Assembly (NCBI GenBank): GCA_937891825.1
Contig: CALAHN010000086.1
Location: forward strand, 1-45,480
Direction of reading: 5' to 3'
From: an uncultured Alphaproteobacteria bacterium
Lineage (GTDB): Bacteria > Pseudomonadota > Alphaproteobacteria > Bin95
Length of the DNA stretch: 45,480 bases
The translations under genes and the position numbers were made by a program. This document shows, in pieces, positions 842 to 11,151 of the stretch; positions within the stretch are counted from its first letter, which is position 1; each line of letters opens with the position of its first letter. The notes beneath the pieces were generated by a model that saw nothing but the letters and a program-made list of their open reading frames with translations, was not told where the DNA came from and made no database searches.

Positions 842-1750
842 TTAATTGAAGCTTGGCGCGTCGCCTTCGTGTAGCAGCAAGGTCACGCCGAGGGCGTCAG
901 CCGGCGCTATGCGCAGCATGGTTCCGATCGGCGTCGCGGCGACGCCGTTTGCGGCGAGGACGGCGGCGGTTTTCGCAAGCGATCCGACGCGCAGGCTGAC
1001 AGCCGCGCCGAACGGGACCGTCGGGATCGCCAGGCCGGGCAGCAGCGCGTCGGCGCCCTTGCGGGTCGCGAAGATCAACTGGCCGCGCTCCAGGCGAACG
1101 ACGCCGGTATCGGGGCTGGATCGGAGCGACGGTTTGCGGACGAAGCGGCTGTAGCGCGCCAGCGCCTCGTCCAGGTCGTCGACGACCCAGACGACACCCG
1201 TCAGCGCCTCGACGCCATTCGGCTGCGCGGTTTGTCCCGGTTGCCAGACGAGGTCCGGCGTGTGGTGGGCGCACCATTGCACGCGACCCTCGGGCATGCC
1301 CTCCGGGGAGACGCGGAGGACGCTGAAGCGTCCTTCCTGCGGGCCGGCCTCGGTCACGACCGTGCGGCGCATGTCCACCGGCTGCAGCGGGTCGAATCCG
1401 GCATCCTGCAGGCGGGGATATTCGCCCGGCACGTCGGCGCTGCTGAAGGCGGCCAGATGCAAGCCCTCATACCGCGCCAGTTGCGCGCCATGTTGCCGGG
1501 CGATCGGCGTGTCGCCGCTGGCCGCCAGGAACTCCAGGTAGCCCAGGCCCGGCGTCGCCAGCCGGTTGCGCGTGCCAGTGGGCGCCTGGCTGCCGTCCGG
1601 CGCCTGGTTCATGTGCACGTTTTCCGTGGACACGATGAAGCCAAGCCGCTCGAACGCCGGCTTGACCGCGTCGAGCGACCGGACGAACCAGCCGACATGA
1701 TCCAGGAAAACGTTGTCGCCTGCCGGGCTTTGGCGATTGCTCCAGGCCAT
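842..1750 (-). CDS. VOC-superfamily (glyoxalase-like domain) protein at the end of the furoate-type operon
   Basis: A 302-residue protein resembling the Glyoxalase_3-like/VOC fold. The N-terminal half begins FLDHVGWFVRSLDAVKPAFERLGFIVS, with a His in the metal-ligand position of beta-1. A second half starts near residue 190 (GVVWVVDDLDEALARYSRFV). YLEFLA and VQWCAHHTPDLVW fit the motifs of a duplicated beta-alpha-beta-beta-beta unit. No signal peptide. It begins immediately after the stop of the hydratase-fold gene, with no gap, and is the last gene of the operon. VOC proteins include isomerases, hydrolases and dioxygenases. In this context it may act on the lactone or enol intermediate between hydroxyfuroyl-CoA and 2-oxoglutaroyl-CoA, but that is inference only. 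Confidence 0.8.
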   Translation of the reverse strand: MAWSNRQSPAGDNVFLDHVGWFVRSLDAVKPAFERLGFIVSTENVHMNQAPDGSQAPTGTRNRLATPGLGYLEFLAASGDTPIARQHGAQLARYEGLHLAAFSSADVPGEYPRLQDAGFDPLQPVDMRRTVVTEAGPQEGRFSVLRVSPEGMPEGRVQWCAHHTPDLVWQPGQTAQPNGVEALTGVVWVVDDLDEALARYSRFVRKPSLRSSPDTGVVRLERGQLIFATRKGADALLPGLAIPTVPFGAAVSLRVGSLAKTAAVLAANGVAATPIGTMLRIAPADALGVTLLLHEGDAPSFN

Positions 1751-2560
1751 CTATTCGCCCGTGAACTTCGGGCGGCGCTTCTCGACGAAGGACGCGACGC
1801 CTTCGGCGAAGTCCTTGCCGCCGCGGAGACGGCCATAGGCCTGGCCCTCGATCTCCATCGCCTGTTCGAGGGGGGAGTTGACGCTATGGTTCAGGACATT
1901 CTTCAAGGTCCGCTGGGCCAGCGGCGAGAATTGGCAGAGCTCCTTGACGAGGTTCGCGACGGCGGTCTCGAGGTCAGCGTCGGGCACGCACTCGGCGGCG
2001 ATGCCCCAGGCTTCCGCCTGCTTGCCGGGAATGCGCAGCGAACGGAGCGACACGTTCTTCGCCCGGCTGACGCCGATCATCTTCTCCAGCCGCGCAGAGC
2101 CGCCGGAGCCGGGGATCATGCCGATGCGCATTTCCGGCAGGGCGAACTCGGCGGTGTCCGAGCAGATGCGGAAATCGCAGGCGAGGGAAAGCTCGAAGCC
2201 GACGCCGAAGCAATAGCCCCTGACGGCCGCGATCACCGGCTTGGAGCAACGCTCCGGCGCGGCGATGTATTTGTGCAATTGGGAGACGGTCTCCTGGCTC
2301 GCGGCCAGAAAACCCGGAATGTCGCCGCCGGAGGAGAAATGCTTGCCCTCGGAGCGGATGACGATCACGCGTACGCGGTCGTCGTGATCCAGCTCATCGA
2401 TCACGGCGGCGATCTGCGGGCGCTGGTTCATGCGCACGATGTTGAACGGCGGCCGGTCCAGGATCAGATCGGCGCGTTGGTTTGCGGCGTCGACTTCGAC
2501 CCGGAAGCCGTCGAGCGACTGCAGCAACTCGGCGCGGTGGGTCTTGAAGCTATCGGTCAT
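1751..2560 (-). CDS. hmfE: Enoyl-CoA hydratase/isomerase-family protein, probable 2-oxoglutaroyl-CoA hydrolase
   Basis: A 269-residue crotonase-fold protein. The oxyanion-hole segments are FSSGGDI (residues 75-81) and GYCFGVGFEL (115-124). Both acidic positions used by hydratases are kept: Glu123 in GFEL and Glu143 in ALPEMRIGMIPG. The block around AAPERCSKPVIAAVRGYCFGVG and the RIPGKQAEAWGIA segment look like the subgroup annotated as 2-oxoglutaroyl-CoA hydrolase (HmfE) in furoate degraders. The start codon overlaps the ligase stop by four bases (ATGA at 2557-2560). In the hmf pathway this enzyme releases 2-oxoglutarate and CoA. Family assignment is firm. The specific hydrolase role rests on subgroup resemblance and on gene order; a plain enoyl-CoA hydratase is the alternative. 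Confidence 0.85.
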   Translation of the reverse strand: MTDSFKTHRAELLQSLDGFRVEVDAANQRADLILDRPPFNIVRMNQRPQIAAVIDELDHDDRVRVIVIRSEGKHFSSGGDIPGFLAASQETVSQLHKYIAAPERCSKPVIAAVRGYCFGVGFELSLACDFRICSDTAEFALPEMRIGMIPGSGGSARLEKMIGVSRAKNVSLRSLRIPGKQAEAWGIAAECVPDADLETAVANLVKELCQFSPLAQRTLKNVLNHSVNSPLEQAMEIEGQAYGRLRGGKDFAEGVASFVEKRRPKFTGE

Positions 2561-4062
2561 GCTTGGTCCTTTGCGTAATCGCCGGATTGTAGCAACCGAC
2601 GGAGAATCTTGCCCACAGGGGATTTCGGAATGTCCGCGACAAATTCATATCGGCGCGGGCGCTTGAAGTTCGCGAGGCCGGAGGCGCGGCAATAGGCGTC
2701 GAGGTCCTCGGCGGTCACCGGCGCTTCGCGCTTGATGAAAGCCGCGACGACCTGGCCCCAGCGCTCGTCCGGCAGGCCGGCGACCGCGACTTCGGCGATG
2801 GCCGGGTGCAGCGACAGCAAGCTCTCGATCTCGACGGGCGAGACGTTCTCGCCGCCGGTGATGATCATGTCGTCGGCCCGGCCGGTCACAAAAAGATCGC
2901 CGTCGCTGTCGAAATAGCCGGTGTCGCCGGTGTAGTACCAGCCCTGCTTCAGGCTTTTCGCGTCGGCGTCGGTCCGGCGCCAGTAGCCCTGGAAAGCTTC
3001 GTCGCCCGCCAGATCGCAAATGATCTCCCCTTCTTCGCCGGGCGCCGCCAGATCGTCCGGCCCGCCGCCGAGCGTCACGACGCGGATCGTCTGATTAATC
3101 CCGGCGCGGCCGGCGGAGCCGGGCTTCGCGGGCGCGTCCGGCTCGATCGAAAAGGTGTAGACCTCGGACGAACCGTAGTGATTGACGAAGAGATCGGGCC
3201 GGAACGCCGCATTCAGCCGTTGCAGCAAGCCATCGGTCATCGAGGCGCCGGCGAAACCGAGCTTGCGGACGGACGAGGCGTCGGTTCGTGCGAAGTCCGG
3301 CGCGGAAACCAGGTCATGATAGAGCGTCGGCACCAGATAGAGGTTGGTGATGCGTTCCTGCTCGATCAGGGCGAGCGAGCTCTCCACATGGAAGCGCGCC
3401 TGGCAGACGAAACAGCCGTCGACCAGGGCGGACGCCAAAAGCGAACGCACGCCCATGGTGTGATAGAGTGGCATGACGCCAAGCGTCCGCTCGCCCCGGC
3501 CATAGCGGTTCTGGGCGACATGGGCGATGGCGGCGGCGCGTTCGGCCCGGTGCAGGCGCGGCACGCCCTTCGGCCGCCCCGTCGTGCCGGAAGTGTAGAG
3601 CATGACCGACCAGGCTTCCGGGTCGCCGTGCGCTGCGGCGGGCAAGGCAGCGCTGGAGCGAAGCTCCTGGAACTCGGGCCCGACGCCAATCCGCAGCAGA
3701 CCCTGGGCGACGGTCGATCCGGCGACGGCTTCGGCGGAGACGTCCTGGAAGAATACAGCCCTGGCGCCCGCGTCCTCGGCGCAGTAGTCAAGCTCGGCCG
3801 CCGTCGCGCGCCAGTTCAAGGGAACGATGGCGATGCCCGAAAGCTGCGCCGCCCAATGCAGCAGGGCCGCTTCCGACGTGTTCTGATAGAGCGAGACGAT
3901 GCGCTCCCCAGGCGCCAGGCCGAGCGCGCGGAGGCCGCCGGCGAGGCGAAGCGCATCGGCGAGCAGCGCTGCATAGGTCCAGCGTCGGTCGCCATCGACC
4001 AGGGCCTCGGCTCTCGGCGCGCGGCTTGCGGCTTGGAGAAGGGCGGCTCCGACATCAAGCAT
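2557..4062 (-). CDS. hmfD: AMP-forming acyl-CoA ligase, probable 2-furoyl-CoA synthetase
   Basis: A 501-residue ANL-superfamily ligase. The phosphate-binding loop YTSGTTGRPKG is at residues 156-166, followed by VMPLYHTMGVRS, a YGSSE acyl-binding motif, the hinge region YYTGDTGYFDSDGDLFVTGRADDMI, GGENVSPVEIE and the C-terminal catalytic lysine in SPVGKILRR. Members activate a carboxylic acid to the acyl-adenylate and then to the CoA thioester. It overlaps the 2Fe-2S subunit gene by eight bases and the hydratase-fold gene by four, so it is embedded in one transcript. Position 4 after the large, FAD and FeS subunits matches hmfD, whose product activates 2-furoate. The substrate is inferred from context only. 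Confidence 0.87.
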   Translation of the reverse strand: MLDVGAALLQAASRAPRAEALVDGDRRWTYAALLADALRLAGGLRALGLAPGERIVSLYQNTSEAALLHWAAQLSGIAIVPLNWRATAAELDYCAEDAGARAVFFQDVSAEAVAGSTVAQGLLRIGVGPEFQELRSSAALPAAAHGDPEAWSVMLYTSGTTGRPKGVPRLHRAERAAAIAHVAQNRYGRGERTLGVMPLYHTMGVRSLLASALVDGCFVCQARFHVESSLALIEQERITNLYLVPTLYHDLVSAPDFARTDASSVRKLGFAGASMTDGLLQRLNAAFRPDLFVNHYGSSEVYTFSIEPDAPAKPGSAGRAGINQTIRVVTLGGGPDDLAAPGEEGEIICDLAGDEAFQGYWRRTDADAKSLKQGWYYTGDTGYFDSDGDLFVTGRADDMIITGGENVSPVEIESLLSLHPAIAEVAVAGLPDERWGQVVAAFIKREAPVTAEDLDAYCRASGLANFKRPRRYEFVADIPKSPVGKILRRLLQSGDYAKDQA

Positions 4063-4552
4063 CGGCGTCTCCTTGGCGAGCGACGTCCATGACGGCGGCG
4101 ACGATCTGCGTGTATCCGGTGCAGCGGCAGATCGTGCCGGAAAGCGCTTCCCGGACGGCGGCTTCCGTGGGATTGGGGTTCTCCGCGAGCCAGGCGTCCA
4201 TGGTCATCAGGATGCCCGGCGTGCAGAAGCCGCATTGCAGCGCATGATGCCGCCGGAACGCAGCTTGCAGGGGCGAGAGCGCGCCGTCCTGGCCCGCAAG
4301 ACCTTCGACGGTGCGCAGCTCCTGGCCCTCGACCTGGAGGGCGTAGGTGAGGCAGGCCCGGGCGGGCGCGCCGTCGATCTGGATCGTGCAGGCGCCGCAG
4401 ACGCCATGCTCGCAGCCGACATGGGTCCCGGTGAAGCCGAGGCCATGGCGCAGGAAGTCGACAAGCAGCATCCGCGGCTCCGCCTCGCCCTCGACCGCTT
4501 TTCCGTTCAAGGTGAAGCGGACCGTGTGCCGCCTGCCTCGTTCAAATCGCAT
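4055..4552 (-). CDS. hmfC: 2Fe-2S subunit of xanthine-dehydrogenase-family molybdenum hydroxylase (2-furoyl-CoA dehydrogenase type)
   Basis: A 165-residue protein with the two [2Fe-2S] domains of molybdenum hydroxylase small subunits. The plant-ferredoxin-like cluster uses Cys47, Cys52, Cys55 and Cys67 (GCEHGVCGAC...C). The alpha-helical cluster uses Cys107, Cys110, Cys142 and Cys144 (QCGFCTPG and ICRCTGY). All eight cysteines are intact. It passes electrons from the molybdopterin site to FAD in an LMS heterotrimer. Its start lies 11 bases inside the end of the FAD-subunit gene, indicating translational coupling. Order large-medium-small followed by a CoA ligase matches hmfABC-D. Confidence 0.9.
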   Translation of the reverse strand: MRFERGRRHTVRFTLNGKAVEGEAEPRMLLVDFLRHGLGFTGTHVGCEHGVCGACTIQIDGAPARACLTYALQVEGQELRTVEGLAGQDGALSPLQAAFRRHHALQCGFCTPGILMTMDAWLAENPNPTEAAVREALSGTICRCTGYTQIVAAVMDVARQGDADA

Positions 4553-5375
4553 GGCGGGTCTCCAGCGCGTGCTTGACGACCGCGAGGCCGACCGTTTTTA
4601 CGAGACGGCGGCGATAGGCCCCATCGGCGCGCGGGTCGCTTCGGGGGTCGAGCCGGTCCGCGAGCTCCCAGACGGCGTCGCGCGCCAGATCGAGCGTCAG
4701 ACCGTCCCAGCGATAGACCAGCGGCGTGTCGCCGACGCCGCCAAGCCCCAGGCTGACGCCGCCCGCGTCCGCGACCGCCGCCGCCGCGACGATGGCGAAA
4801 TCCCCATGCCGCTCTGCGACTTCCCGGAAAGCGACGCCGGCGCCCTCGGGCAAGGCGTTGAAGCGCGCGGCGAACAGAAGCTCGTCGGGCCGGATGTCAG
4901 TCTGGAACATGCCGGCATAGAAGTCCGCCGCCTGAATGCCGCGCTGGCCGCTCGCCGACCGCACGAGGGCGACGCCGCCCAGGACCGAAAGCAGCAGCGG
5001 CAATTCCGCCGCCGGGTCCGCATGGGCGAGGCTGCCGCAGACCGTTCCCCTGGCCCGGGTCTGGACGTGACCGATCCACGGCATCCCGGCATGGAGCAAG
5101 GGCTGACGGGCGGCAAGCGCCTCGTCGGCCAGCAAAGCCGCCTGCCGGGCGCCGGCCATAACGATGACGCCGTCCTCCGTCCATTCGATCCGGTCGAAGT
5201 CAGGGATATGGCCGATATCGATCAGCACCGCCGGCTGCGCCAGCCGGAGGTTGAGCATCGGCCCAAGCGACTGGCCGCCCGCCAGGATGCGAGCGTCTTC
5301 GCCAGCGTCGGCGAGCACGCTCAAGGCTTCGTCCAGGCTTTCGGCGCGGACGTAATCGAAGGCGGCGGGCTTCAT
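4542..5375 (-). CDS. hmfB: FAD-binding medium subunit of molybdenum hydroxylase (2-furoyl-CoA dehydrogenase type)
   Basis: A 277-residue protein of the CoxM/XdhB-medium family with an FAD-binding PCMH domain and a C-terminal CO-dehydrogenase-flavoprotein domain. The pyrophosphate-contacting motif AGGQSL is at residues 32-37. The second FAD motif appears as RGTVCGSLAHADPAAELP (about 109-126), a variant of the usual TIGGNLAHADPASDLP pattern. It overlaps the large-subunit stop by four bases and the small-subunit start by 11 bases. It oxidises the FeS subunit and donates electrons to an unknown acceptor. Family is clear; substrate is inferred from operon composition. Confidence 0.9.
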   Translation of the reverse strand: MKPAAFDYVRAESLDEALSVLADAGEDARILAGGQSLGPMLNLRLAQPAVLIDIGHIPDFDRIEWTEDGVIVMAGARQAALLADEALAARQPLLHAGMPWIGHVQTRARGTVCGSLAHADPAAELPLLLSVLGGVALVRSASGQRGIQAADFYAGMFQTDIRPDELLFAARFNALPEGAGVAFREVAERHGDFAIVAAAAVADAGGVSLGLGGVGDTPLVYRWDGLTLDLARDAVWELADRLDPRSDPRADGAYRRRLVKTVGLAVVKHALETRHAI

Positions 5376-7807
5376 GTGCGGCCGCCATCGGGGAGCGCCG
5401 CGATCAATGCCGCGATCCGGGCCGGACGGAGCGGCAGGTCGATGCTGTCCAGGTCCAGCGCATCGGCGACGGCGTTGGCGAGGCAGGCCGGCGCGCTCAT
5501 GGTCGTGCCCTCGCCGATGCCCTTGGCGCGCGTCAGGGTGACGGGCGAGGGCGAGGCCAGGTGGACCAATTCCAGGTCCGGGGTCTCGCAGGCCGTGGGC
5601 AACGGGTAGTCCGCGAGGCTGGCGGACAGGAAGGCGCCCGCCTGATCATACATCAGTTCTTCCATCAGGGCGGCCCCGAGGCCCTGGGCGAAGCCCCCCT
5701 GAGCCTGACCGTCGGCCATGGCCTGGTGCAGGATCTGGCCGGCGTCATGGGCGGAGACATAACGGTCGATCCTGATTTGGCCGGTATCCCGGTCGATCTC
5801 GACGCCGCAGAAATCGAAGACGAAGCCATAGGCGGCGGAGCCGTTGATGCGGTCCTGGTCGTCCGGCGGCTGCAGCACATCCGGCGACCAGTTGGCGGTG
5901 ACGCTGAGGGCGGCGCCGACGCCTTGAGGCAAGGTCGATGCGGCCCAATGGCTTTCGCCCGCCAGACGGCGGAAATCCAGGCTGCGATCGGGCGCATCCT
6001 TGGCGAACACGCGGCCATCGGCGAACCGCACGTCCTTCGGGCCGCAATCGAGCCTGGCGGCGGCGATCCGGGCGAGGCGGTTGCGGAGGCCCGTCGTCGC
6101 GCGCAGCACGGCGCTCCCGACCGCGCCCGCAAACCGGCAGGAATAATTGCCCGACGCGATCGACCAGCCGTCGCGGCCGGTGTCGAGCTCCGTATTCACC
6201 CGGATGCCGCGCGGATCGACGCCCAGCACGCGGGCCATGATCTGGGCCGCGACCGTCCGGTGGCCCTGGCCCTGGGGCGTGGAGGCGATGGAGGCGGTGA
6301 CGCCGCCAAGCGCATCGACGGCGACGGTCGCCAGCGCCTGGGCGCCTCCCTTCGGGCCGGAGCGCGCCCGCTCTTCCGGCGTCAGTACGGTCGTGATGTA
6401 GCCCATGTTGGAAATCGTCGGCTCGACGACCGCGGCGAAACCGATGCCGTAGAGCTTGCCCTCGGCGCGCTTCGCCGCCCGTGTCGCCTGAAGCGCCGCC
6501 AGCCGGCCCTGGACGACGGCGCGGTCGATCAGGCCCGCATAATCGCCCGAATCGTAGATGCCGCCCGATGGCGTCGTGAAGGGCATGGCGGCGGCTGGCA
6601 CGAGGTTGCGGCGGATAATATCCAGCGGATCGCGGTCGAGCGTGCGCGCGATCTTCCGCATCAGTTGTTCCAGGGGCATGTAGACTTGGGGGCCGCCGAA
6701 ACCCCGGTTCAGCCCCGTCGGCGTCTTGTTGGTGACGACGACGCGGTTCCGGATCGCCAGGTTCGGGATGGCGTAGGCGCCGGTCATGCAGGCATGCATC
6801 CGGTAGAGGGTCGCTGGCTCCGGCGCTTTCAGATAGGCCCCGACATCCTCGATCTGGTCCCAGCGGAGGGCGGTCACGGCGCCGTCGGCCTGAACGGCGG
6901 CCTCCAGGCGGACGACGCGGTTGGTGGCGCTGCCGGCCGCCGTCAGATGCTCCATCCGGTCCTCGATCCATTTGACCGGGCGGCCGGATATGCGGGCCGC
7001 GACCGCCATCAGCACGGCATAGGGCGCGACCCCCTGCTTCACGCCGAAACTGCCGCCGGAATCGGGCGGGGTCTTGATGCGCAGGCGATTGCTCGGCACG
7101 CCGAGCGCCATCGCCATGACCGGCTGGATCGCATAGGGGCCCTGGAAATGCGTCGTGACTGTGTAGCCGTCGTCGCCGGCCTCATATTCCGCGATCAGGC
7201 CGAAGCATTCGATCGGCGTCGCGAGGCTGCGGGGATAGTGGGTCGCGATGCTGACGATGCGGTCGGCCGCAGCGAAGGCCGCGTCCGGATCGCCGTAAGC
7301 AAAGCTGCGTTCCGACGCCAGATTGGCGCCGTTTTCCGGGTGCAGCAGCGGCGCATCCGGCGCCAGCGCCTGCTCTGGATCGACCACGGCGTCGAGCGGC
7401 TCGTAATCGACCGCGACCAGTTCGGCCGCGTCCTCGGCGATATAGCGGTCGCGCGCCAGGATGACCGCGACGGGCTCGCCGACATAGCGGGCGCGGTCGA
7501 CCGCGATCGGGTAATGCTCGATGGACGAGCGCACGCCGACGATGAACGGCCGCGTCAGCGCCTTCACGGCGGCGCCCGTCACCACCGCCGCGACGCCCGG
7601 CAGGGCGAGCGCCGCGCTGGCGTCGATCCCCCGGATCAGGGCATGCGGATGCGGCGAGCGCAGGATCGTCGCCGTCAGCGCGCCCGGCGGCGCAGGAAGG
7701 TCGTCGATAAACTTGCCGCGCCCGGTTAACAGGGCGGCATCCTCCACGCGCTCCGGCGAGCCGCCGATGCTCCAGTCGCCGTCCATGGGGGTGTCTCTCC
7801 CGGTCAA
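5372..7807 (-). CDS. hmfA: Molybdopterin-binding large subunit of xanthine-dehydrogenase-family hydroxylase (2-furoyl-CoA dehydrogenase type)
   Basis: An 811-residue large subunit. The N-terminal a/b hammerhead domain begins near VEDAALLTGRGKFIDDLPAP. Molybdopterin-cytosine-dinucleotide-binding segments include SGGSFGVKQG, GQGHRTVAAQIMARVLG and the C-terminal GIGEGTT with the presumed catalytic base Glu. The active-site loop reads RGFGGPQ (about residue 365), as in xanthine dehydrogenase, and not AYRCSFR of form I CO dehydrogenase. That excludes a true CO dehydrogenase. It is the first gene of the operon, with about 150 bp upstream. An alternative start at MDGDWSIGG, seven codons downstream, is possible. 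The 2-furoyl-CoA substrate is inferred from the hmfABCDE-like order. Confidence 0.88.
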   Translation of the reverse strand: MTGRDTPMDGDWSIGGSPERVEDAALLTGRGKFIDDLPAPPGALTATILRSPHPHALIRGIDASAALALPGVAAVVTGAAVKALTRPFIVGVRSSIEHYPIAVDRARYVGEPVAVILARDRYIAEDAAELVAVDYEPLDAVVDPEQALAPDAPLLHPENGANLASERSFAYGDPDAAFAAADRIVSIATHYPRSLATPIECFGLIAEYEAGDDGYTVTTHFQGPYAIQPVMAMALGVPSNRLRIKTPPDSGGSFGVKQGVAPYAVLMAVAARISGRPVKWIEDRMEHLTAAGSATNRVVRLEAAVQADGAVTALRWDQIEDVGAYLKAPEPATLYRMHACMTGAYAIPNLAIRNRVVVTNKTPTGLNRGFGGPQVYMPLEQLMRKIARTLDRDPLDIIRRNLVPAAAMPFTTPSGGIYDSGDYAGLIDRAVVQGRLAALQATRAAKRAEGKLYGIGFAAVVEPTISNMGYITTVLTPEERARSGPKGGAQALATVAVDALGGVTASIASTPQGQGHRTVAAQIMARVLGVDPRGIRVNTELDTGRDGWSIASGNYSCRFAGAVGSAVLRATTGLRNRLARIAAARLDCGPKDVRFADGRVFAKDAPDRSLDFRRLAGESHWAASTLPQGVGAALSVTANWSPDVLQPPDDQDRINGSAAYGFVFDFCGVEIDRDTGQIRIDRYVSAHDAGQILHQAMADGQAQGGFAQGLGAALMEELMYDQAGAFLSASLADYPLPTACETPDLELVHLASPSPVTLTRAKGIGEGTTMSAPACLANAVADALDLDSIDLPLRPARIAALIAALPDGGRT

Positions 7808-7953: not shown

Positions 7954-9267
7954 TTACAGAATAAACTTCGACAAGTCGGCGTTCTTCGCCAGTTCGCCGA
8001 CGCGCGTGCGCACAAGCTCCGCGTCGATGATGACGGTTTCGCCCTTGCGGTCGGCGGCTTCGAAGCTGATGTCCTCCAGCAGGCGCTCCATCACCGTGTG
8101 CAGGCGCCGGGCGCCGATGTTCTCGACGCTGGCGTTGATCTCCGCCGCCAGATCGGCAAGCGCTTCGATCGCGGCCTCGTCGAACTCCAGCGTGACGCCT
8201 TCTGTCAGCAGCAGCGCCTTGTACTGCACCAGCAGCGATGCTTCCGGCTCCTTCAGGATGCGCAGGAAATCATCGCGGACAAGCGCTTTCAACTCGACGC
8301 GAATCGGCAGGCGGCCTTGCAGTTCCGGCAACAGGTCGGACGGTTTCGCGATATGGAACGCGCCCGAGGCGATGAACAGGATATGATCGGTTTTCACCGT
8401 GCCGTATTTCGTCGGCACGGTGGCGCCCTCGATCAGCGGCAGCAGATCGCGCTGCACGCCCTCGCGGGAGACGTCGGCGCCGCCCCGGTCGCCCTTGTTG
8501 GCGATCTTGTCGATCTCGTCCAGGAAGACAATGCCGTTCTCCTCGACCGCCGTGACGGCCTCGCGGGCGGCGGCGTCCTGATCGACCATCGCCTCAGCTT
8601 CCTCGCGGACCAGCGCCTCATAGCTTTCGCCGACGGTCATCCGGCGTTTGCGCATCGGCGGCTGGAACGCCTTGCCCAGCAGATCGCCGATGTTCATGAC
8701 GCCCATCTGCGCGCCGGGCATGCCGGGCATTTCGAAGGTCGGCATCTTCGGCCCGCCGGCGCCGTCGCGGAGTTCGACGTCGATCTCGCGGTCGTTCAGG
8801 AGGTTTTCGCGCAATTGCTTGCGGAAGGTCTGGCGCGTGGAATCCGCCGCCGTCTTGCCGCAAAGCGCGTCGAGCACCCGTTCCTCCGCCGCCAGCTCGG
8901 CCTTGGACTGAGCGGCGAGCCGCTGCTTTTCCTTGGCGGCATGCAGCGCGATCTCGACGAGGTCGCGGATGATGCTTTCGACGTCGCGGCCGACATAGCC
9001 GACTTCTGTGAACTTCGTCGCTTCCACCTTGATGAACGGCACTTGCGCCAGCTTGGCGAGGCGGCGCGCGATCTCGGTCTTGCCGACGCCGGTCGGCCCG
9101 ATCATCAGGATGTTCTTCGGCAGCACCTCGTCCTTGAGCGCGGGCGGCAATTGCTGGCGGCGCCAGCGGTTGCGGAGCGCGACAGCGACGGCGCGCTTGG
9201 CGTCCTTCTGGCCGATGATGTGCCGGTCCAGTTCGGAAACGATCTCGCGGGGGGAAAAACTGGTCAT
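7954..9267 (-). CDS. hslU: ATP-dependent protease ATPase subunit HslU
   Basis: A 437-residue Clp/HslU AAA+ ATPase. It begins [20 protein letters not shown], with Walker A GPTGVGKT, the GYVGRD pore loop, Walker B FLDEIDKI, the sensor/arginine region GRLPIRVEL and the C-terminal tail SKFIL that docks into HslV. The ATG at 9267 overlaps the hslV stop as ATGA, the usual coupling; a longer in-frame upstream extension is only antisense-like coding noise inside hslV. HslU unfolds substrates and threads them into the HslV peptidase in the cytoplasm. Length and motifs are normal for the family. Confidence 0.97.
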
Positions 9268-9827
9268 CGGGCGGTCTCGGAGTCCAAGGATTCGAGGGTG
9301 ACGTTCGTGTTGGTATAGATACAGATGCCGGCGGCGATCTCCAGGCTGCGGCGGGCGATGGCCTCCGCGTCCATGTCCGGGAACGGCAGCAGCGCCCGGG
9401 CGGCGGCGAGGGCATAGGCCCCGCCTGAGCCGATGCCGATCAGCCCGTCGTCCGGCTCCAGCACGTCGCCGACGCCGGTCAGGGTCAGCGAGGTCCTGGC
9501 GTCGGCGACGGCCATCATCGCCTCCAGCCGGCGGAGATAGCGATCGGTCCGCCATTCCTTCGCCATTTCGACGGCGGCGCGGGCCAATTGGTCGGGATAT
9601 TGCTCCAGTTTGGCCTCAAGCCGTTCGAACAGGGCGAAGGCGTCGGCGGTGGCGCCGGCGAAGCCCGCGATCACATTGCCGCCCGCCAGCCGGCGCACTT
9701 TGCGCGCCGTGCCCTTGATCACCGTATTGCCGAGGCTGACCTGCCCGTCGCCCGCGATCGCGACCTTGCCGCCCTTGCGGACCGCGAGGATGGTCGTGCC
9801 ATGCCAGACTTGCGTTTGTTCCGTCAC
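9264..9827 (-). CDS. hslV: ATP-dependent protease proteolytic subunit HslV
   Basis: A 187-residue N-terminal-nucleophile peptidase. The mature enzyme starts at the Thr in [23 protein letters not shown], preceded by a short propeptide typical of alphaproteobacterial HslV (TEQTQVWHG). The GTG at 9827, with an AGG element a few bases upstream, gives the family-typical N-terminus. A longer ATG-initiated reading (from 9911) would add 28 non-conserved residues and is less likely. HslV forms a double hexamer capped by HslU. Expression is probably shared with hslU through the overlap. The divergent dcd gene lies about 170 bp upstream. Confidence 0.96.
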
Positions 9828-9999
9828 CGATTGCCTGCTTTCTGTTGCGCGCCCGAACGGCGGCGTCCTGCCTTGAGGGCATGCATGTGGGATGGCGGGG
9901 GGCGAGGTCAAGGCGGCCGCGCGCGCCGCCGGTCCGACAGACTGGCGAAAGCCGCGGAATTCCTGTCTATTGCAGGTCCTCCGCCCCCGTAGCCGTCAG

Positions 10000-11151
10000 A
10001 TGTTTTCGCCCATGCGCCAAGCTGAATTCGAAGGGATCGCCGCCGACGCCGAAGCCGGAACCGGCGTTTGGCCGGCCCAGCGGATTCGCGCCATCGCCGA
10101 AATCGGCCGCATCCGGTCCGAAACCCCGCTCGACCCGGACCAGATCCAGCCCGCCAGCCTCGACCTCCGCCTGAGCGGGACGGCCTACAAGGTGCCTGCG
10201 AGCTTCCTGCCCGGCCGCCGCTTCACCATGGCCGAGCGGCTGGCGGATTGCGGGGCCGAACGGTTCGACATCGCCGATGGCGCCGTGTTCGAAACCGGCG
10301 GCATCTACATCGTGCGCCTGCAGGAAACGGTTGACTTGCGGCGGCGGGAATCGGCCTTCGCCAACCCGAAAAGCTCGACCGGGCGGCTGGATATCTTCGC
10401 CCGGGTCATTACCGACTACGGCATTCAGTTCGATACGGTCGAGGAAGGCTATACCGGCCCGCTCTGGCTGGAGATCGCGCCGCGCTCGTTCAACGTGCTG
10501 GCGCGGGCGGGTTCGCGCCTCGCGCAATTGCGCTTCCGCACCGGCGCGCCCAGCATCGGCAGCCGGGCCGTTCGGGAATTGAACGAAACCCACGGCATCA
10601 TCGCCGCCGAGGGCCTCTCGCCGATCATCCGCGACGGCGCCATCGCGCTTTCGGTCGATGTGGCGGGCGATCCGGACACCGGCCTGATCGGCTACAAATC
10701 GCTCTCGGTCGACACGCCGATCGACGTGGACGTGCGCGGCCAGTACGACCCGGCGGAGTTCTGGGAGAAGCTCTACCGTCCGGCCAGGAACGGCCTGATC
10801 CTGGAGCGCGACCATTTCCACATCCTCGCGACCAAGGAAACCGTCGCGATCCCGGAAGGCTACGCGGCCGACATGTTCGCCTACGATACGCTCGTCGGCG
10901 AGTTCCGGGTGCATTACGCGGGCTTCTTCGATCCCGGCTTCGGCTATGTCGACGGCAAGCGGGTGGGCGCCAAGATCGTGCTCGAGGTCCGCAGCCACGA
11001 GGTGCCGTTCATGGTCGACGACGGCCAGGTCGCGGGATTTGTGGCGGTCGAGCGCCTCTCCAGCCCGACCGACTTGCTCTACGGCGCCGGCGCCGGGTCC
11101 AACTATCAAAGCCAGGGGCTGGCGCTCTCGAAGCAGTTCAGGCGCGGCTGA
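10000..11151 (+). CDS. dcd: Two-domain dCTP deaminase (2'-deoxycytidine 5'-triphosphate deaminase)
   Basis: About 383 residues, twice the length of the E. coli-type Dcd. The N-terminal half has IQPASLDLRLSG, the signature KSSTGRLDIFARVITD and the catalytic-Glu strand LWLEIAPRSFNVLARAGSRLAQLRF. The C-terminal half repeats the fold with VGEFRVHYAGFFDPGFGY and VLEVRSHEVPFMVDDGQ. Tandem-domain Dcd proteins are common in Alphaproteobacteria and deaminate dCTP to dUTP for thymidylate synthesis. Start is ambiguous: ATG at 10000 (MFSPMRQ) or at 10012. The frame also extends upstream to 9892, but without conserved sequence. Its last 14 bases overlap the convergent aldo/keto reductase gene. Confidence 0.9.
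   Translation: MFSPMRQAEFEGIAADAEAGTGVWPAQRIRAIAEIGRIRSETPLDPDQIQPASLDLRLSGTAYKVPASFLPGRRFTMAERLADCGAERFDIADGAVFETGGIYIVRLQETVDLRRRESAFANPKSSTGRLDIFARVITDYGIQFDTVEEGYTGPLWLEIAPRSFNVLARAGSRLAQLRFRTGAPSIGSRAVRELNETHGIIAAEGLSPIIRDGAIALSVDVAGDPDTGLIGYKSLSVDTPIDVDVRGQYDPAEFWEKLYRPARNGLILERDHFHILATKETVAIPEGYAADMFAYDTLVGEFRVHYAGFFDPGFGYVDGKRVGAKIVLEVRSHEVPFMVDDGQVAGFVAVERLSSPTDLLYGAGAGSNYQSQGLALSKQFRRG

Follow-up and report, generated by a model that had tools for sequence, protein, structure and literature searches.

The analysis presented here indicates that a 45,480-nucleotide stretch of DNA from an uncultured Alphaproteobacteria bacterium (GenBank assembly GCA_937891825.1, contig CALAHN010000086.1; the whole stretch is hereafter called the window) very probably harbors an hmfABCDE operon for growth on 2-furoate, as judged from the observed genes, their order, their homology and their co-occurrence. 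2-Furoate is a product of plant-sugar decomposition. The list of open reading frames (ORFs) places six tightly packed genes on the minus strand, from position 7807 to position 842, and their Pfam assignments correspond, in order, to the large subunit of a molybdenum (Mo) hydroxylase (HmfA; Ald_Xan_dh_C/MoCoBD_1/MoCoBD_2), its flavin adenine dinucleotide (FAD) subunit (HmfB; FAD_binding_5/CO_deh_flav_C), its iron-sulfur (FeS) subunit (HmfC; Fer2/Fer2_2), a coenzyme A (CoA) ligase (HmfD; AMP-binding), a crotonase-fold enzyme (HmfE; ECH_1) and a VOC-fold protein (Glyoxalase_3, 78.1 bits versus a gathering score of 25.1). The pathway is of an ordinary kind and the window operon is a modest variant of it: HmfA has no C-terminal CoxG domain, and the VOC gene follows hmfE.

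An initial annotation of the window had read the interval 842-7807 as a five-gene operon encoding the large, FAD and FeS subunits of a Mo hydroxylase, a CoA ligase and a crotonase. The ORFs and Pfam matches agree with this order and the five hmf genes stand, but the interval really holds six genes, the last of which had been left unnamed. Similarly, the overlaps of 4 to 11 bases noted at the time were recovered (4, 11, 8, 4 and 0 bases, proceeding from the large subunit to the VOC gene), but the final junction, described as immediate, is the one between the crotonase and the VOC gene, which starts at the base directly after the hmfE stop. The six genes would probably form one transcript with coupled translation; counts of promoter-like sites (2 versus 1.0 in shuffled sequences) and of terminator-like sites (3 versus 4.4) provided no signal. 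For the large subunit, ATG 7786 is a more likely start than TTG 7807, the one initially proposed, because a GGGAGAG motif precedes the ATG and the corresponding ORF in G013, a genome of the same genus, begins within one residue of that point.

Conservation of hmf loci and the furoate assignment

The crotonase and the large subunit were compared via TBLASTN with 72,556 plasmid records, and the best 40 matches were listed for each. The crotonase matched 1,812 records; among the 40 listed, 35 present 59-68% identity, followed by Priestia (50%), Geobacillus (47%) and three others at 34-36%. The same 35 records, which include Cupriavidus, Paraburkholderia, Azospirillum and Dinoroseobacter, head the 40 listed for the large subunit (56-63%), ahead of Agrobacterium (53%), the Gram-positive plasmids of Priestia and Geobacillus (49%) and two archaeal ones (about 41%). 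Annotated loci read in Azospirillum, Cupriavidus, Dinoroseobacter, Geobacillus and Rhizobium contain the same five genes, accompanied by varying combinations of regulators (AraC/LysR or others), transporters and XdhC. When GTDB genomes were scanned with an alignment of crotonases, at least 383 relatives were confirmed and 80 of them kept; hmf-type loci are not rare. The comparison encompassed 109 loci: the window, five plasmid loci, 79 of the 80 kept scan loci, eight further genomes of the class, and 16 loci from 11 other genomes of the family (ten with hmfE, and one, G010, without it). All five genes occur in one locus in 79 of these: 77 have them on a single strand in A-B-C-D-E order and two have them rearranged, while the remaining 30 are split between places or contigs, cut by a contig end, devoid of hmfABC, one gene short, or belong to G010.

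The window proteins, from HmfA to HmfE, are 59, 46, 63, 62 and 64% identical to those of the Cupriavidus pinatubonensis locus, and the HmfD value falls alongside those of Pseudomonas and Stutzerimonas HmfD against the same Cupriavidus protein (61-62%). The equivalent identities between Cupriavidus and Stutzerimonas (66/64/74/62/77%) and between Cupriavidus and P. syringae (66/58/74/61/74%) resemble those given for C. basilensis HMF14 and P. pseudoalcaligenes (64/59/77/61/80%), in which the operon is tied to furoate use (PMC6678421, in the excerpts available), and this resemblance supports the hmf reading. In trees inferred for HmfE, HmfD and HmfA, three of the five proteins, the window sequence falls within the Hmf set beside its relatives of the same genus, a grouping that carries a star in each of the three and also in an HmfA tree computed without outgroups. 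The phylogenetic check proposed in the initial annotation hence groups ligase, large subunit and crotonase with proteins from hmf loci, against few outgroups. In the crotonase, Glu123 is present in 97 and Glu143 in 98 of 103 sequences, the rest being those without a match to the search pattern.

A further line of evidence is provided by a Pfam-confirmed UbiD protein encoded on another contig of the window genome (C48), which is 59% identical to the UbiD beside the Dinoroseobacter hmf genes and which we infer to be HmfF. In 32 of the 109 loci, hmf genes are accompanied by a UbiD gene whose product is 55-62% identical to the C48 protein. Across the 14-genome family, which constitutes the whole order in the genome collection used, a UbiD of at least 67% identity occurs in nine of the 11 genomes that have hmfE, against none of the three that lack it; the probability of this co-occurrence by chance is 10/364 = 0.027, a value that ignores kinship and uses a threshold set after seeing the rows. 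Since HmfF converts 2,5-furandicarboxylate into furoate (PMC12064950, in the excerpts available), the co-occurrence constitutes independent, if small, support for furan use. Gene order, the 35 shared plasmid records, the trees and the HmfF-like UbiD thus all favor the hmfABCDE assignment initially drawn from synteny and subgroup resemblance.

The reactions proposed here are taken from the Hmf pathway described in C. basilensis. HmfD would convert 2-furoate into 2-furoyl-CoA, and the Mo enzyme HmfABC would hydroxylate ring C5 to yield 5-hydroxy-2-furoyl-CoA, tautomerising to a 5-oxo lactone form. Opening of the ring of this lactone form would generate 2-oxoglutaryl-CoA, from which HmfE would release 2-oxoglutarate. 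Part of the furoate may come from 2,5-furandicarboxylate via the HmfF-like UbiD. Conceivably, the same machinery could degrade another acid of related heteroaromatic or aromatic type, such as pyrrole-2-carboxylate or thiophene-2-carboxylate, through hydroxylation of its CoA ester, with furoate as a side substrate or none. The identity to the Cupriavidus Hmf proteins (46-64%) lies in a range where a change in ligase specificity is feasible; among solved structures, the closest to the ligase is that of a 4-chlorobenzoate:CoA ligase; and the visible surroundings of the operon include no gene for furfural oxidation. We nonetheless regard this alternative as distinctly improbable, given that the five genes are kept together as in hmf loci, that the crotonase, whose proposed substrate is 2-oxoglutaryl-CoA, falls within the Hmf group, and that an HmfF-like UbiD co-occurs in the genome.

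Several observations weigh against the furoate assignment. In the HmfA tree, a long Mo-hydroxylase paralogue (L008) fell beside the Geobacillus HmfA and, in the HmfD tree, a second Geobacillus ligase fell beside the Geobacillus HmfD, the Geobacillus rows being long; outgroups are thin, and C. pinatubonensis stands in for C. basilensis HMF14 in the identity comparison. No regulator, transporter or XdhC adjoins the operon within the visible contig flanks, so that the initial statement on transporters and regulators holds for these flanks, the contig ending 841 bases beyond the operon. The window HmfA is devoid of the CoxG domain present in 76 of the 85 loci judged for it, and two genomes with hmfE have no close UbiD (G012, which is 83% complete, and G002, with a 39% match only). 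Lastly, none of the five window Hmf proteins reaches a cut-off among the NCBIfam rows shown, which name no model for Hmf. In those rows, however, Dinoroseobacter HmfA, Azospirillum HmfE and Cupriavidus HmfD and HmfE also fall below cut-off; curated names are no test of the hmf reading.

The operon of C. basilensis HMF14, as it appears in the excerpts of PMC6678421, has the same five enzyme types, in the order also found in the C. pinatubonensis locus. The window differs from it in the CoxG-less HmfA, in the extra VOC gene after hmfE, in having no visible adjoining transporter, regulator or XdhC, and in the location of the HmfF-like gene on another contig.

The large subunit and its CoxG domain

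The large subunit has the active site of a Mo hydroxylase, comprising an RGFGGPQ loop and a catalytic glutamate. Alignment to solved carbon monoxide (CO) dehydrogenases places RGFGGPQ at their cysteine loop, confirming the earlier remark that the protein does not carry the CO-dehydrogenase loop, and 78 of 83 large subunits contain the motif, as is likewise the case for G-x-G-E-G. RGFGGPQ also occurs in xanthine dehydrogenases and, for this reason, speaks only against a CO dehydrogenase. By score, the solved structure nearest to the large subunit is that of a CoxL, and the best NCBIfam matches of the subunit, all far under cut-off, are glyceraldehyde and CO dehydrogenases. That the operon encodes a CO-dehydrogenase or xanthine-type enzyme beside unrelated CoA genes is, however, extremely unlikely: the cysteine loop is replaced by RGFGGPQ, the large subunit belongs to the Hmf group, its partner genes are fixed across loci, and the genome has a separate CoxG-FeS-large-FAD set on contig C69. 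The large subunit of this Mo-hydroxylase set (L206, positions 2172-6886) is 32% identical to HmfA, and the genome contains 13 MoCoBD_1 matches, of which two share a frame.

Among the 85 judged loci, CoxG is fused to the C-terminus of HmfA in 75, encoded by a separate gene in one (Geobacillus) and absent in nine, with PF06240 confirmed in the Dinoroseobacter HmfA and in the separate Geobacillus gene. The nine loci without it are those of the window, G013 and G011, four of a sister genus (g2), and two from two other families (L200 and L201), a distribution that requires at least three changes on the HmfA tree. A C-terminal CoxG on HmfA is hence common in hmfABCDE operons, not defining for them. 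On plasmid pHTA426 of Geobacillus kaustophilus HTA426, HmfA (810 amino acids) also has no fused CoxG and the order A-B-C-D-E is kept, but a free-standing CoxG gene lies between A and B, an arrangement unique among the 85; the window operon has none. Three COXG matches lie elsewhere in the window genome, one of them in the Mo-hydroxylase set on C69. CoxG links CO dehydrogenase with the membrane and the quinones in it. If the domain on HmfA has a similar role, the electron route of the window enzyme may differ, since its HmfA is without CoxG, and HmfABC would hand electrons on in another way. The absent domain had not been mentioned in the initial annotation; CoxG-less enzymes open a direct test of the role of CoxG in furoyl-CoA dehydrogenase.

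The VOC protein encoded after hmfE

The VOC gene lies 0-5 bases after hmfE in five of the 103 hmfE loci: those of the window genome, G013, G012 and G011, all of one genus, and that of G216, from another family. Within the genus the operon sits at two places, following hslU in the window and G013, whereas in G011 it is divided between two contigs, with hmfA after a TauD-like gene in the one and hmfD-hmfE-VOC beside folC in the other. In G010, of the same genus, a single contig has the TauD gene (assigned by Pfam), the VOC gene and folC side by side with no hmfABCDE, and the thresholds used revealed neither HmfE nor HmfA elsewhere in that genome. The G010 VOC gene is intact and its product is 68% identical to that of G011, a value shared by the neighboring folC; the ratio of nonsynonymous to synonymous substitution rates (dN/dS) between the two VOC genes is about 0.09, with dS near saturation. 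The VOC gene is therefore retained in the absence of the pathway. Within the genus, the VOC proteins are 52-60% identical to that of the window, versus 85-86% for HmfE. In a class sample of 385 genomes, hmfE was detected in 14 (1e-85) and the VOC gene in 22 (1e-45), with five genomes having both and three of these having them adjacent. Matches to the VOC protein were found in 104 plasmid records, all below 60% identity and 65 of them from Pantoea, and none of the 40 listed belongs to the 35 records shared by crotonase and large subunit. In G216, hmfD and hmfE-VOC are set apart by about 2 kb, most of it occupied by an ORF on the reverse strand (L074, positions 7974-9721).

An alignment of 30 VOC homologues, not counting paralogues, shows no variation at Glu73, His98 and Glu154; His18 is conserved in 29, the other having a gap. 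A profile of 20 homologues best matched methylmalonyl-CoA epimerases (E 2.5e-4), a weak match in which His18 and His98 align with epimerase histidines and Glu73 with a glutamine, positions that we take to be metal ligands in the epimerases. The metal-site residues are thus partly aligned, but, compared with VOC metalloenzymes such as methylmalonyl-CoA epimerase and glyoxalase I, the VOC protein is twice as long, the similarity is weak and it belongs to a Pfam family of its own, Glyoxalase_3, for which we know of no activity. The structure predicted from a three-sequence alignment (mean predicted local distance difference test score, pLDDT, of 49.9) was too poor to use. VOC homologues at 36-47% identity occupy neighborhoods that differ between families and present no common theme in the eight loci read, of which three, all from one family, resemble each other; the other three of the 11 loci considered (L186, L189 and L191) drop out because gene calling missed the VOC gene there.

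The VOC protein probably has a function outside furoate use, since G010 keeps it without the pathway and the neighborhoods are unlike each other. It is most likely an accessory metalloenzyme that this genus recruited to the operon end and whose function extends beyond furoate. A slightly better than even case can be made for the VOC protein alone being a passenger, a housekeeping or detoxifying enzyme that happens to be cotranscribed with hmfE; this view of the sixth gene leaves the furoate assignment of the other five untouched. The varied neighborhoods of its homologues point in this direction, as do its separation from hmf in genus g2 of the same family, its maintenance in G010 under low dN/dS, and its lower conservation relative to HmfE. 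Conversely, it directly follows hmfE in all four same-genus genomes with hmfE, in spite of the two operon locations, and does so again in another family. A metal-dependent enolising enzyme acting on a CoA ester would be a possible fit for the lactone step. PMC6678421 states that ring opening has no assigned gene, and only a putative hydrolase is listed for it in PMC12064950 (both in the excerpts available). A combined proposal, which we rate as unlikely, would make the VOC protein a metal-dependent enzyme of acyl-CoA chemistry, tautomerising or opening the 5-oxo-furoyl-CoA lactone ahead of HmfE, and would have the dehydrogenase work without CoxG by another electron route. The VOC gene nevertheless provides a concrete candidate for the ring-opening step. 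Among the papers listed in literature searches, none was seen to treat a VOC gene in an hmf operon or a CoxG-HmfA fusion; we do not claim their absence from print.

Two further ideas were set aside. Co-transfer of hmfE and the VOC gene between the genus and G216 is not claimed. The HmfE tree joins the genus to G216 (99/96) to the exclusion of g2, while the HmfD and HmfA trees join it to g2, and the approximately unbiased (AU) test on HmfA rejects a grouping of the genus with G216 without g2 (p 0.001). However, an HmfE tree constrained to genus plus g2 is not rejected (p 0.13), and the VOC tree weakly places G216 with G107 of its own family (83/18) without rejecting genus plus G216 (p 0.185). 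The second idea concerns an alpha/beta hydrolase gene beside hmf in Pseudomonas syringae GR12-2 (L145), a ring-opening candidate which, at a guess, might be the "hyd" of PMC12064950 (in its excerpts). Its product has no match at 1e-10 in the window genome, 39-43% matches in ten of the 14 family genomes, including two without hmfE (G008 and G009), and matches in five of the 109 loci, its own included; it yields no conclusion because it is not hmf-specific.

Flanking genes and other locus arrangements

Upstream of the operon, in the same direction, lie hslU and then a gene for an HslV-like proteasome-fold protein. Downstream, positions 1-731 hold, on the minus strand, an Xre/MbcA-type antitoxin gene (PF20432, PF09722) followed by the start of a RES-domain gene (PF08808) truncated by the contig end; the two are probably a RES-Xre toxin-antitoxin pair.

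Four of the compared loci have hmfE together with an FAD monooxygenase gene (58-76% alike) and no hmfABC in the locus; PF01494 was found in the three scanned, and three of the loci carry hmfD-hmfE, L123 being cut upstream. No such monooxygenase was detected in the other 105 loci at 1e-20. The best full-length HmfA-like matches in the L109 and L123 genomes are 35-36% identical, with a 44% contig-edge fragment also present in the former, and the L124 and L142 genomes have an HmfA-like match of 51-53% on another contig. A flavin enzyme may take the place of the Mo enzyme in some of these bacteria. One more locus (L106, positions 8361-10774) has hmfD-hmfE with neither hmfABC nor the FAD monooxygenase, and the best HmfA-like protein of its genome is 38% identical. 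In genus g2 (L058, L060, L062, L068, L070, L071 and L072), hmfE is unlinked from hmfABCD and adjoins a hydantoinase-B-like gene, with PF02538 confirmed in L062 only and an apparent A partner, identified by eye, alongside.

Table 1. Genes and sites of the window operon, and FAD monooxygenase genes of four other hmf loci.
Feature	Location	Coordinates	Strand	Basis
hmfA-like, Mo-hydroxylase large subunit, 804 amino acids, no C-terminal CoxG domain	window	5372..7786	-	ORF, Pfam
Probable ribosome-binding site, GGGAGAG, before ATG 7786	window	7795..7801	-	read in sequence; inference
hmfB-like, FAD subunit, 277 amino acids	window	4542..5375	-	ORF, Pfam
hmfC-like, 2x[2Fe-2S] subunit, 165 amino acids	window	4055..4552	-	ORF, Pfam
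hmfD-like, AMP-forming acyl/aryl-CoA ligase, 501 amino acids, proposed furoyl-CoA synthetase	window	2557..4062	-	ORF, Pfam, tree
hmfE-like, crotonase-fold enzyme, 269 amino acids, Glu123 and Glu143	window	1751..2560	-	ORF, Pfam, tree
Sixth gene, VOC-fold protein PF13468, 302 amino acids; His18, Glu73, His98, Glu154 conserved	window	842..1750	-	ORF, Pfam, alignment
FAD monooxygenase	L109	4760-5962		
FAD monooxygenase	L124	7147-8394	-	
FAD monooxygenase	L142	11849-13033		
FAD monooxygenase	L123	2045-3229		

The window operon overturns nothing known and presents two natural alterations of the hmf operon. Its assignment would place the use of furoate, and perhaps that of 2,5-furandicarboxylate, in a small alphaproteobacterial order seen as draft genomes.

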